Assembly (NCBI RefSeq): GCF_031312535.1
Contig: NZ_CP133594.1
Coordinates: 248,001-312,000, forward strand
Direction of reading: 5' to 3'
DNA length: 64,000 bases
Source of the DNA: Methanolobus mangrovi
GTDB lineage: Archaea; Halobacteriota; Methanosarcinia; Methanosarcinales; Methanosarcinaceae
Position numbers and translations under genes: made by a program. Below, one piece after another: positions 1,031 to 5,699 of the stretch (position 1 is its first letter; every line of letters starts with the position of its first letter). The notes under the pieces are model-generated. The model was not told the DNA's origin and did not search any database. It was given only the letters and a program-made list of their open reading frames with translations.

Positions 1031-1840
1031 TCACAGACACTCGTTGTTGTCACAGGATACATATAGTGTACCTTTTCCCTTCTGTGGGATGGCATAGTCG
1101 CCTGTGAACTTCTTGTATTCTCCGGGGCACTCGATGTCGTTGAACTTGAGGTCAGACTCAATGTCTACAAGCTCAAATCCAGGGGTGAATCTCTCAATAC
1201 ATCCACCTACAACAATGGTACCGCCGGTCATTTCTGCTCCAACGGTTCTGACAGCGTTTCCTTTTACAACGATAAGTCCAGAGCTAATGCGGATTCCGCA
1301 GAAGTGTTTGACATTACCGTTAATAATTATCTCTCCGCCACTAAGGCCGCCGCCAACCTGGCTTACAGCATCTCCATCAACGGTGATGCGCCCGCCGGTC
1401 ATGCCTTTCCAGCTACCGCGGTATGCACAGCCAACGTGGTCCTTTGTGTTTCCTTTAATATGGATGGAGCCGCCTTTCATTTCCATTCCGGCCCATGATT
1501 CAGCGTCACCTTCTACGATGATCTCTCCGCCTTCCATTCCAGAGCCTACATGCATTCCTGCAGAGCCTTTGATAAGGATTTTACCGGCTGTCATCTGTTG
1601 TCCGATACGCTTTACTCTTGGAACGTCTCCATCTACTATGATGGTAGTATCTTCTGCTGAGCTTCCACCGTTTCCTTCAACTGTAAAGAAATCAGTGAGT
1701 GGGTACTCTGCAGGTCCCTGCCACACGAGTACTTTTCCAATCTCATCGGCAGTTTTTCCGGCAAAGTTGTCAGGTGTGACAACCTCTGCCTCTACGGTAA
1801 GGTCGAAATTTCCTATTGGTTTAAGAATTACGTCTGCCAT
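1031..1840 (-). CDS. fmdC: Formylmethanofuran dehydrogenase subunit C
   Basis: Subunit C of the formylmethanofuran dehydrogenase complex, about 269 aa. The middle of the protein is built of GG-x-I-x-V-x-G-type repeats (for example GGEIIVEGDAE, GGRITVDGDA, GGEIIINGN), the right-handed beta-helix shared with the C-terminal domain of glutamate synthase; in the complex it scaffolds the A and B subunits. A GTG at 1849 would give three more residues, but the GGAG Shine-Dalgarno is better spaced for the ATG at 1840. The start sits 5 nt from the fmdA stop, so translation is probably coupled. Confidence 0.92.
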   Translation of the reverse strand: MADVILKPIGNFDLTVEAEVVTPDNFAGKTADEIGKVLVWQGPAEYPLTDFFTVEGNGGSSAEDTTIIVDGDVPRVKRIGQQMTAGKILIKGSAGMHVGSGMEGGEIIVEGDAESWAGMEMKGGSIHIKGNTKDHVGCAYRGSWKGMTGGRITVDGDAVSQVGGGLSGGEIIINGNVKHFCGIRISSGLIVVKGNAVRTVGAEMTGGTIVVGGCIERFTPGFELVDIESDLKFNDIECPGEYKKFTGDYAIPQKGKGTLYVSCDNNECL

Positions 1841-1845
1841 TAAAA

Positions 1846-3600
1846 TCACTTCTCCGCATTGACCTGGATCGGTGTTGGGTTTGCCAGGTACTTTTCTGGT
1901 GTTGGATATCTGTCAAAACCAATTGTGTAGTACTTGAACCACTTCTTTACATCTGCAAGCATACTCTTCTCATCGTCTGCATCTACTGCAATGTCAGTGT
2001 AGAATGTGTTCTTCTCAGGAATTGCAACGATCTCACCCATCTGGGATACGACCTCTCCTGCCTTGATGGTGTATGCAGCGTTCTCAAAGCCTCTTATGAT
2101 GCTCTCATAATCGTTGACCTCAAGCTTCTTTGGATCGATATTGTAGATAGCAACGTCACCGTCTGCACCGACGCCAAGGGTACCTTTCCTGTATGACATT
2201 CCAATTGTCCTTGCAGGGTTTGCACGGGTAAGAATGGCAATTTCGTTAAGTGTCATTTCCCTTGTTTCTCCGCCCAGGCCGGTTCTGTCCTGTGCCCACT
2301 TGTGACATTCGGCGAATGTGTCCTCTCTTGCCTTGTTGGACATAAGCCATGCAATGACCTGTGGGTATTTTGTAAATGGTCCACCGTTCGGGCTGTCGGT
2401 TGTCATGATGCTCTTCCATGCGTCCTTGACGTAGAGAAGTACTTCAAGACCCATTGCCCACTGTGAACTGTGTATAGGGTTGCTCTTCAGGTATTCGAAT
2501 GGAAGTACACCTGATCCACATTCACACTCTACATCTGTGTTTGACCATTTGTGGCCGGTAAGTACGTAGAGGTCGTGGATTGCAGGACCGTCACCGGTCA
2601 TAACTGTTGCGTCACCGAAAGGCACACAGCCACTGTCCATTACAACGTGGTCGTTGCTGTTGACGTAGTCAGTGATTCCTTTTACACCGGACTCGAAGTC
2701 TCTCCATGATGTACCACCGAAAGCATTGAACTGGCAGTGTGTGAGGTAAACTGACTCATGCCTCTTTGCATTTCTCTTAGTCTCTGCCCATTCAACATCT
2801 GTGTTTGGCTTTGCCTTGACACTCTTTGGTATTTTGAGTGAGTCCCTTGTAATTTCCCAGCATCCAGGGTGACCAAGGTTGTTTGCGTGCAGGTGCACAG
2901 GCATTGGGATTCCAAGCTTTTCGTTCAGTTCAGACAGGCTCTTTATCATATCTTCAGGTGTGACCTCGAAGTGAATGTTTGCCTGGTCAAGAGCTCCAAC
3001 GTTCTCTCCCCATCCCCAGTTCTCTACTCCACCAGGGTTGACACATTTTATACCATAGGTCTTGTGTGTCTTCATCATCCATGAGATGTATGCTGCTGCC
3101 TTATCGACATCTCCTTCCTTGAGATATCTCATGAGGAACCAGTTGTTACCCAGTACAAGGTATCCGCCCATGTCCAGCATAGGGGTTGAACGCATTTCCT
3201 CGTGTGTGTGGCGTGCTTCCATTGGTGGGACAGCTGCCTCGAAAACAGTTGTGTATCCCATCTTGGAGTACTCGTATCCTCCAAGGTAAACTGAAGGTAC
3301 AGTGTATCCTGTTCCGGAATGTGTGAGTGGTGTTCTCTTCTGGTAATGCTTGTAGTGGTCCTCTGGTCTCATCATCCTACCAGTATTGACCTTTGCTCCT
3401 GCTACGTGGGAGTGTGAGTCAACACCACCGGGCATAACGGTCTTGCCCTTTGCATCAATTTCCTTTACATCTTTCATGTCTGCGCTGGAAAGTTGAGTTA
3501 CGACTTTTCCGTCTTTGATGAAGATGTCCATGATTTCCCCGTCAATCTCATTGAGGGGGTCGTAAACGTAACCGTTCTTGATTGCAATAGTTCCTGCCAT
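1846..3600 (-). CDS. fmdA: Formylmethanofuran dehydrogenase subunit A
   Basis: Amidohydrolase-fold subunit (584 aa, near the family length) that condenses formate with methanofuran to give formylmethanofuran. The metal-site signature GVDSHSHVAG (HxH) lies near residue 62, the lysine that is carboxylated in this fold is in GIKCVNPGG near 185, further histidines are in VHLHANNLGHPG and YLTHCQF, and the Asp is in TTDSPNGG. It follows fmdF by 2 nt in the operon. No truncation or missing catalytic residue is visible. Confidence 0.95.
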   Translation of the reverse strand: MAGTIAIKNGYVYDPLNEIDGEIMDIFIKDGKVVTQLSSADMKDVKEIDAKGKTVMPGGVDSHSHVAGAKVNTGRMMRPEDHYKHYQKRTPLTHSGTGYTVPSVYLGGYEYSKMGYTTVFEAAVPPMEARHTHEEMRSTPMLDMGGYLVLGNNWFLMRYLKEGDVDKAAAYISWMMKTHKTYGIKCVNPGGVENWGWGENVGALDQANIHFEVTPEDMIKSLSELNEKLGIPMPVHLHANNLGHPGCWEITRDSLKIPKSVKAKPNTDVEWAETKRNAKRHESVYLTHCQFNAFGGTSWRDFESGVKGITDYVNSNDHVVMDSGCVPFGDATVMTGDGPAIHDLYVLTGHKWSNTDVECECGSGVLPFEYLKSNPIHSSQWAMGLEVLLYVKDAWKSIMTTDSPNGGPFTKYPQVIAWLMSNKAREDTFAECHKWAQDRTGLGGETREMTLNEIAILTRANPARTIGMSYRKGTLGVGADGDVAIYNIDPKKLEVNDYESIIRGFENAAYTIKAGEVVSQMGEIVAIPEKNTFYTDIAVDADDEKSMLADVKKWFKYYTIGFDRYPTPEKYLANPTPIQVNAEK

Positions 3601-3602
3601 AA

Positions 3603-4622
3603 TTATTCCTCCCTTGTCTCAAGTACGATGGCACTTACCGGGCAGATCATAGCACATGCACCGTCTGAACCACAGAGATCCTGGTTAACGACCTTTGCTA
3701 CGCCATTCCTTACTTCAAGGACCTTTTTGGCATCGACTTCGTTAAGGTATCCTGCTCCAACGTTATCGTCGGTTGCGTTTACAGGACAAACAATAACACA
3801 GTTTCCACAACCAAGGCATGCATCTTCATCGATGACAAGTGTGGAGGTAAGTGTAGGTCTCTTCATTTCAGCATTGAGAAGTTTCTTCTCAAGAAGCGCT
3901 TTCTTGTCAACTTCAGGAATAATGGCTGTTTTTGTAACAGTAATTGCTTCGACAGGACAGGCCATGTCACATGCACCACAATAGATACATGCATCAGCAC
4001 GCTGTGCAATCTTGTCAACCCTTTCTCCTTTTTCCCAGTCAGGGTTGAAAAGTGCATTACATGGGCATGTGTCTACGCATGTGCGACAGGCAGTACAGGT
4101 GTTCTCGTCCCTGAACCATGTTCCTTCAAATGGTTTTTCAACGCTGATAGCTTCAGCAGGACAGACAGCTTCACACCATCCACAGTGTATGCAACATTCG
4201 GTGTCGATCTTTGTCTCGCCGTCAACACTTGCGGTTCCATCGTTTGCAAGCCACTGTTTTACTTCGATGCATCCCTGCGGGCAGATCTGCTCGCAAAGTC
4301 CACAGTGAACACAGTTGTCATTGACAGTTGTGTCTTTAAGTGCAACGCTTATGTAACTATTGTCATTTACAGACTCTCCGGCCTGTTCCAGTTCAAGTGC
4401 ACCTGTTGGGCATGTCTTAGCACAGATTCCACATACAATGCAGAGTTCTGTCTGGTTCTCGAGGAAATCTTTGTCTATAAGTCCTCTTGCAACGGCTCCT
4501 ACTGAACCGAGAACTAATGAACCCTTAGGACATGCCATAACGCACGTTCCGCAACCGATACACTTCTCTGATGTGTATAACAGTTGCTTGTCGTCTTTTA
4601 CTCCAAACACTACTTCGTTCAT
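3603..4622 (-). CDS. fmdF: Polyferredoxin subunit F of formylmethanofuran dehydrogenase
   Basis: Iron-sulfur wiring subunit, about 339 aa, dominated by CxxCxxCxxxCP motifs: CIGCGTCVMACP, CIVCGICAKTCP, CVHCGLCEQICP, CIHCGWCEAVCP, CTACRTCVDTCP, CIYCGACDMACP, CLGCGNCVIVCP and a variant CGSDGACAMICP, so about eight [4Fe-4S] clusters in four ferredoxin pairs. It carries electrons between ferredoxin and the B subunit. The start MNEVVFGVKD at 4622 has a GGAG site; a frame open 81 nt further upstream adds residues that do not look like this family. It is the first gene of the operon here; no fmdE lies directly upstream. Confidence 0.93.
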   Translation of the reverse strand: MNEVVFGVKDDKQLLYTSEKCIGCGTCVMACPKGSLVLGSVGAVARGLIDKDFLENQTELCIVCGICAKTCPTGALELEQAGESVNDNSYISVALKDTTVNDNCVHCGLCEQICPQGCIEVKQWLANDGTASVDGETKIDTECCIHCGWCEAVCPAEAISVEKPFEGTWFRDENTCTACRTCVDTCPCNALFNPDWEKGERVDKIAQRADACIYCGACDMACPVEAITVTKTAIIPEVDKKALLEKKLLNAEMKRPTLTSTLVIDEDACLGCGNCVIVCPVNATDDNVGAGYLNEVDAKKVLEVRNGVAKVVNQDLCGSDGACAMICPVSAIVLETREE

Positions 4623-5168
4623 CTGATCTTCTCCGTAATCCTGCCTATGAATGCAAATGCTTCCAGGTAGATGTCCTGTAAATGATATACAGCAGTTCTG
4701 CAAATTTATCGCAGATATTGATACTGATGTCTGCTAAAGAACATTTATCAATCGAGCATTTTAATGTGTTTGCGGGCATGAATACGCCTTTTTCAACAAA
4801 CTTATCCTTTCAGGCAAAAAGCCATTCTGGTTAGCCTGCTTACAATCTTGACTCTAATGATCGTGTCACTATACTTAAATGATCTCCGAATCCGATGGAC
4901 CGGAGAATTGTAATTATAGTGACACGTATTTGTTATAAAAGTATCGTTTGTACCTGTTGTTGTTTGCAGTCTACAGATAAGTGTGTGTTTTCTCTGTATG
5001 ATACGAATAAAATATTATTATTGACGGTAGGGTATTCGGTGACTTTATATACCACTAATCATCCCCATATTATATGGGATATGTAATTGGGTCTTAAATC
5101 AATCATGTAGCTTTATTTGATACTATCAATTTTTGACCAAATTTTAATGTTTGCATGGAGATGGGAAT
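4623..5168. other. Divergent intergenic region, fmd operon / DUF1638-like gene
   Basis: About 545 nt without a convincing gene. Besides the palindrome it holds a clear plus-strand TATA box (GACTTTATATAC, about 5041-5052) roughly 115 nt before the gene at 5169. A matching TATA box for the minus-strand fmd operon was not obvious, so that operon probably has a long leader. Short open frames here (for example 4895-5086) lack ribosome sites and look random. Confidence 0.5.
4862..4926. repeat. 65-nt long palindrome upstream of fmdF
   Basis: Perfect 12-bp arms, CGTGTCACTATA (4862-4873) and TATAGTGACACG (4915-4926), enclose a second inverted repeat, CTCCG (about 4884-4888) with CGGAG (about 4901-4905). 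As RNA it would fold into a long hairpin with one internal loop. It lies between the divergent fmd operon and the gene at 5169, about 240 nt upstream of fmdF. It could be a two-site operator, a structured leader or a small RNA; I see no target-site duplication that would mark it as a mobile element. Confidence 0.7.
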
Positions 5169-5699
5169 ATGCCTTTGATGAGCATAATAGGTTGCACAGA
5201 ATTCGAAAAGGAAATCGTGGAATTATTAGCAGAAGATAAGATGATCGATCACCTGCTTGTTGTGAATGGGTCCAAATCTTTAGGACTTATATCTTCTCTC
5301 AAAAAAATGGGTTTAGTCCCGGATGTACTTTCTCCGGAAAGAATACCCAGTGGTTTGAAGAAAAGTAAAGGGTTCAATGTGCTTGTAACTCTACAGGATG
5401 TTAATGTATATCAGTCGCCAAAGCACATGAAAAGAGAGATTTACGAAAAAATAAAGTTCTATGGTTTAGTTTCCAATGGTATCCTTATAATCCATAGTTC
5501 ATGTGGAAGTATGTTTGATAACGCACTTTTGGATTTTTCTAATAGTCGTTTTCTCCTTGAACTGTTATCTTCAGAAAATGAGGATAATATCGGGGATAAA
5601 ACTGGTGAAGGCTTTTCAGACAACAAAGATATCCATACTGAAATTATAGAACAATATAGAAGCAGCTATAATAAACTTAAGGAACAGATACTTTCATAA
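5169..5699 (+). CDS. DUF1638-like protein
   Basis: About 176 aa, no signal peptide. The pattern IIGCTEFEKEIVELL near the N-terminus, followed by EIYEKIKFYGLVSNGILIIHS with SCGS, resembles DUF1638 proteins, which in methanogens often sit near corrinoid methyltransferase genes; this copy is shorter than usual and the family's GLCGN motif is replaced by SSCGS, so the assignment is tentative. ATG at 5169 has GGAG 8 nt upstream; an upstream TTG at 5151 is in frame but has no such site. It is divergent from the fmd operon and followed by the shikimate kinase operon. Function unknown. Confidence 0.5.
   Translation: MPLMSIIGCTEFEKEIVELLAEDKMIDHLLVVNGSKSLGLISSLKKMGLVPDVLSPERIPSGLKKSKGFNVLVTLQDVNVYQSPKHMKREIYEKIKFYGLVSNGILIIHSSCGSMFDNALLDFSNSRFLLELLSSENEDNIGDKTGEGFSDNKDIHTEIIEQYRSSYNKLKEQILS

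Follow-up and report, generated by a model that had tools for sequence, protein, structure and literature searches.

A conserved palindrome at the promoter-leader junction of the fmd operon in Methanolobus

The fmd locus and the palindrome

The window analysed here is a stretch of 64,000 nucleotides of the Methanolobus mangrovi genome (NZ_CP133594.1, positions 248,001 to 312,000), and it contains the start of the fmdFACDB operon, which begins with the gene of a polyferredoxin, fmdF (Table 1). Fmd carries out the CO2-releasing/CO2-fixing step of methylotrophic methanogens. FmdB was found at G000:247337-248617; the genome also encodes a second FwdB at another place. The fmd locus was matched in all 27 Methanolobus genomes. 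A palindrome at window positions 4862-4926, for which the first-pass annotation had given the correct coordinates and sequence, is placed between fmdF and a divergent gene, where the promoter of the operon meets its leader. Its description as lying upstream of the fmd operon is supported, and the fmdF start is 240-305 bp downstream. The divergent neighbour (5169-5696, plus strand) encodes a protein of 176 amino acids with no match in Pfam or NCBIfam, and several other Methanolobus loci likewise have the region of its ATG upstream of fmd.

The outer arms of the palindrome, CGTGTCACTATA and TATAGTGACACG, complement each other perfectly over 12 bp and are 41 nt apart, as had been reported, and they extend to a match of 15/16 (CGTGTCACTATACTTA / TAATTATAGTGACACG). 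An inner repeat is also present; however, it has 6 bp, TCTCCG (4883-4888) / CGGAGA (4901-4906), and not the 5 bp originally given. The RNA folding z of the palindrome is -5.9 for the plus strand and -7.0 for the minus strand. Apart from the outer arms, the window has no perfect 12-bp inverted pair whose loop is 60 nt or shorter. However, to call this far beyond chance was an overstatement: dinucleotide-shuffled windows contain on average 0.25 such pairs per 64 kb, and a 15/16 pair arises in 3 of 60 shuffles. The palindrome is beyond chance because it is conserved, and not because of the pair statistics alone. In addition, Rfam covariance models found no match in positions 4500-5300 up to E = 10.

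Table 1. Features of the fmd locus and ModE-like sites of the genome (window positions unless a contig is named)
Feature	Position	Strand	Basis or remark
fmdC	1031..1849	-	GXGXG domain and operon order
fmdA, formylmethanofuran dehydrogenase subunit A	1846..3600	-	TIGR03121, 820.9 bits
fmdF (polyferredoxin), first gene of the operon	3603..4622	-	ORF and Fer4 domains
fmd mRNA 5' leader, predicted, ~285-290 nt	4622..4911	-	promoter and fmdF start
Near-invariant leader block AGGCAGGATTACGGAG with fmdF ribosome-binding site	4631..4646	-	alignment A4/A5
Near-invariant leader block GGCGTATTCATGCC	4775..4788	-	alignment A4/A5
Distal (left) arm CGTGTCACTATA, inverted second putative operator copy	4862..4873	+	~40-50 bp downstream of predicted start
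Inner inverted repeat, 5'-terminal stem-loop of fmd mRNA	4883..4906	-	folding kept across genomes
Predicted fmd transcription start	4911..4916	-	25-30 bases from first T of TATA box
Proximal (right) arm CGTGTCACTATA, putative operator	4915..4926	-	between TATA box and predicted start
fmd core promoter, BRE + TATA element AAACGATACTTTTATAAC	4932..4949	-	near-invariant in 27 Methanolobus and 2 Methanomethylovorans loci
TATA box TTTTATAA	4933-4940	-	within AAACGATACTTTTATAAC
ModE-like sites	G000:C1:469498-469520, 1905837-1905859		upstream of truncated modA-like gene and of mod operon

The fmd promoter and its start

The core promoter and the proximal arm form one near-invariant block. In the alignment of 27 Methanolobus and 2 Methanomethylovorans loci, the near-invariant stretch reads AAACGATACTTTTATAACAAATACGTGTCACTATAATTACAATT in the fmd sense, and a promoter-model search found the block at fmd in 27/27 Methanolobus genomes. 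The SRP RNA of several Methanolobus genomes is preceded by a nearly identical TATA element, AAAGGATACTTTTATAAC (five loci), and, counted from the first T of this TATA box, the Rfam SRP model begins at base 30. Furthermore, promoter elements of M. psychrophilus R15 were reported to lie ~19-22 nt from the transcription start (PMC5378194). The fmd start was calibrated on the SRP RNA and on this spacing of 19-22 nt, and its exact position is thus a prediction from sequence. With a start at 4911-4916, the right arm would lie upstream of the start or just touch it. Promoter geometry therefore predicts that the right arm is untranscribed and that the fmd mRNA does not contain the complete outer stem.

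Conservation of the outer arms

In the proximal arm, CGNGTYACTATA is kept in nearly all Methanolobus and GTNACT in Methanomethylovorans. The SRP RNA promoters share the TATA element and lack the proximal arm, and thus the arm is not a general core-promoter feature. Both arms were recognisable in 20 of the 27 genomes, and nearly all of these 20 have the core CGNGTYACT in both arms. In 10 of the 20 genomes, the proximal and the distal arm differ at position 3; at positions 10-12, the proximal arm constantly has ATA and the distal one drifts. Comparison of the 20 genomes with both arms found no compensatory changes in the outer stem. Matching changes are needed by an RNA stem but not by independent binding sites, and the independent variation of the arms fits a pair of DNA sites. 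A DNA operator pair had been one option of the first-pass annotation, and it is supported by the conservation of the arms near the promoter without compensation of the RNA type.

The distal arm has an identity of 0.83 when the main clade is compared with the halotolerans clade and of 0.65 in comparison with the psychrophilus-type clade, and most of the leader around it has an identity of 0.3-0.5. Thus, the distal arm is an island of conservation. In the FmdF tree, it is found on either side of the deep split of the genus; it is degenerate in the psychrophilus-type clade and is lost, together with the proximal arm, in one genome (G020). From this distribution, the distal arm was probably present in the ancestor of the genus and later degenerated or disappeared in these lineages. 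Methanomethylovorans keeps the promoter and GTNACT without the inverted distal copy. Just past the start, its fmd leaders (five loci) have another 12-bp inverted repeat, GGTAGTATAATA / TATTACACTACC, which folds only mildly better than shuffles. The span of the arms in Methanolobus varies by 8 bp (59-67 bp) across genomes, so a fixed helical phasing is not kept, and this counts against an operator pair. An antisense promoter at the distal arm was rejected, as no TATA box was seen upstream of this arm.

The inner stem-loop and the rest of the leader

The first 36 nt from the predicted start fold as a hairpin in 26/26 genomes (z from -1.7 to -6.1, mean -3.1). In a sliding scan from -140 to +300, the inner repeat was the sole position that is structured in all six clades, and its sequence identity between clades is at background level. 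Conserved structure with unconstrained sequence is what a functional RNA stem-loop is expected to show. In the main clade, pairwise covariation of the inner stem was only weakly above shuffles, so the case for the stem-loop rests on folding across clades. RNAalifold found no structure in a MAFFT alignment of the 5' region, owing to misalignment of the clades, and each genome was folded by itself instead. The first-pass suggestion of a leader hairpin thus holds for the inner repeat but not for the full palindrome, whose right outer arm would be untranscribed. Since the stem-loop sits at the 5' end of the mRNA, its likely role is to protect the transcript from 5' decay.

The distance from the TATA box to the ATG is 307-327 in most genomes, 253 in L028 and 353 in L030. 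Two blocks of the leader are near-invariant (Table 1), and the one with the ribosome-binding site recurs in Methanomethylovorans. The two blocks are mutually complementary over about ten pairs, and partition-function folding gave this helix a low probability in most genomes. Both blocks hardly vary, and the helix is therefore beyond the reach of covariation. It is conceivable, though quite doubtful, that an archaeal RNA control element has gone unrecognised in the fmd leader. It would consist of the 5' stem-loop and the complementary blocks GGCGUAUUCAUGCC and GGCAGGAUUACGGAG, the latter being the block that holds the ribosome-binding site. A switchable long-range helix might then hide or expose the translation start of fmdF, and the signal might be a metabolite, the Mo/W cofactor or temperature. 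An upstream open reading frame starting in GGCGTATTCATGCC was rejected: the frame is not kept, three loci stop early, and L028 has no ATG.

Search for a regulator

Matches to the half-site elsewhere in the genome, with at most 1 mismatch, were found only inside unrelated genes. The first-pass annotation had proposed to look for the half-site near other Mo/W genes, and it is absent from the mod operon and from the other loci with genes of substrate-binding proteins. Neither this genome nor a promoter-model search of the 27 genomes of the genus gave a second convincing site at further promoters. The weak matches inspected were SRP RNA promoters (positions 2-22 only), coding sequence or matches in a single genome, and two matches in Methanococcoides adjoin tRNA genes. 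As the half-site occurs at no other promoter, there is no regulon to back a transcription factor, which counts against an operator pair, and a regulator with a single target is possible.

A search of the genome with TIGR00721 for Tfx had no match, while control profiles matched. Tfx is thus absent from this genome and was rejected as the regulator. ModE, with HTH and TOBE/Mop domains, is encoded at G000:2306892-2307446 and was matched in 27/27 genomes of the genus. ModE operators resemble CGTTATAT-N-ATATAACG. In this genome, ModE-like sites take the form CGTTRTGT-N7/8-ACATAAC, and a scan of the genome found only those at 469498 and 1905837, and none at fmd. These sites differ from the arms, and the earlier remark that the palindrome does not match the ModE consensus is right. 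Taken with the absence of Tfx, this difference means that control by molybdate through ModE or Tfx is not supported. Separately, modE is broken by four stop codons in G020 (G020:C14:22091-22510).

Discussion

The palindrome is a genuine regulatory region, conserved and ordinary in kind, in which a putative pair of operators overlapping the promoter is combined with a 5' mRNA stem-loop. We lean moderately towards the explanation that the outer arms are two inverted DNA recognition sites bound by a dedicated regulator and that the inner repeat is a separate stem-loop of the mRNA. The recognition sequence would have the core CGNGTYACT, and a dedicated DNA-binding regulator would most likely bind both copies. 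At the proximal site, the bound regulator would block the loading of RNA polymerase; at the distal site, it might act as a roadblock or as a cooperative partner. Such a regulator would act by repression, rather than activation, in response to some signal. The stem-loop at the extreme 5' end would then protect the transcript that is made.

The arms could also have separate roles. The proximal GTYACTATA may be no more than a strong promoter's melting or initiation region, unusually well conserved, and the distal arm may act in the mRNA by binding a protein or small RNA, with the inverted identity being partly coincidence or the relic of an inverted duplication. It would account for several features: the proximal arm has an AT-rich end, suited to DNA melting, conservation at the distal arm runs past the far side of the palindrome (AGTGACACGATCATT), the distal arm alone would be transcribed, and Methanomethylovorans has the proximal GTNACT(AT) without a distal copy. 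However, GTYACTATA is missing from SRP RNA promoters that have nearly the same TATA element, and the core CGNGTYACT is retained in both arms across clades. We keep this explanation as a tentative one, which is rather unlikely. Transcription of the whole 65 nt as one long hairpin, either a leader structure or a small RNA, is distinctly unlikely. Both strands fold well, as given above, and M. psychrophilus R15 has 195 small RNAs (PMC5378194). However, transcription from the sole promoter seen on the fmd strand would begin within the palindrome, and the promoter of the divergent gene is well to the right and reads away. No promoter was seen for an RNA that spans the palindrome, so that the small RNA once suggested for this site finds no backing there or in Rfam. 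Together with the uncompensated changes of the outer stem, the promoter geometry, taken from the predicted start, led us to reject a full-length leader hairpin or small RNA.

It is very improbable that ModE binds the arms as a molybdate/tungstate operator. The presence of ModE throughout the genus would suit such an operator, and so would G020, which lacks both arms and has the interrupted modE; but the sites that resemble ModE operators are elsewhere, and the psychrophilus-type clade retains ModE despite its degenerate distal arm. By linking the arms to ModE, G020 points against a dedicated regulator, although it is the one such Methanolobus genome, a single case in a fast-evolving genome. 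A dedicated regulator, comparable to HdrR for hdrBCA, seems to us the most economical reading.

To our knowledge, no regulator of an fmd operon has been identified apart from Tfx. According to the summary in PMC3087415, Tfx of Methanothermobacter was reported to bind downstream of the fmdECB promoter (Hochheimer 1999). The fmd operon of Methanolobus is similar, as far as this summary goes, in having a putative protein site downstream of its promoter; the difference is that Tfx was not found in the Methanolobus genome, the gene order is not the same, and there is also a site upstream of the start. HdrR is a dedicated regulator of hdrBCA in Methanosarcina barkeri and has a palindromic, conserved promoter site (PMC11218639). 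Both cases concern one methanogenesis operon with a conserved palindromic promoter site, the regulator of fmd being putative. However, the operons differ, and fmd has two 12-bp sites 53 bp apart, whereas HdrR, as far as its description goes, has one compact palindrome. Like ModE operators, the fmd inverted repeat lies near a TATA box, that of an operon with a link to Mo/W metabolism; these operators differ from the arms in sequence and spacing, as judged from the genome's own ModE-like sites.

Long stabilising 5' leaders have been described for the methanogen mRNAs mtaA and mtaC, as cited in PMC5378194. The fmd operon is likewise a central methanogenesis operon with a long leader. In contrast to what that citation conveys of mtaA and mtaC, fmd has a stem-loop at the very 5' end that is conserved across the genus, and its stabilising effect is putative. 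Being conserved and precisely located, the putative operator pair can serve directly as bait to isolate the regulator, and the leader, which is deeply conserved, offers a second, RNA-level handle on the control of this central methanogenesis operon. In a Methanosarcina-type genome, the fmd promoter model weakly matches CGATAATTTTATAA (G099:C1:362403-362443), ~430 bp upstream of fmdE, a hint that the leader is long there as well.
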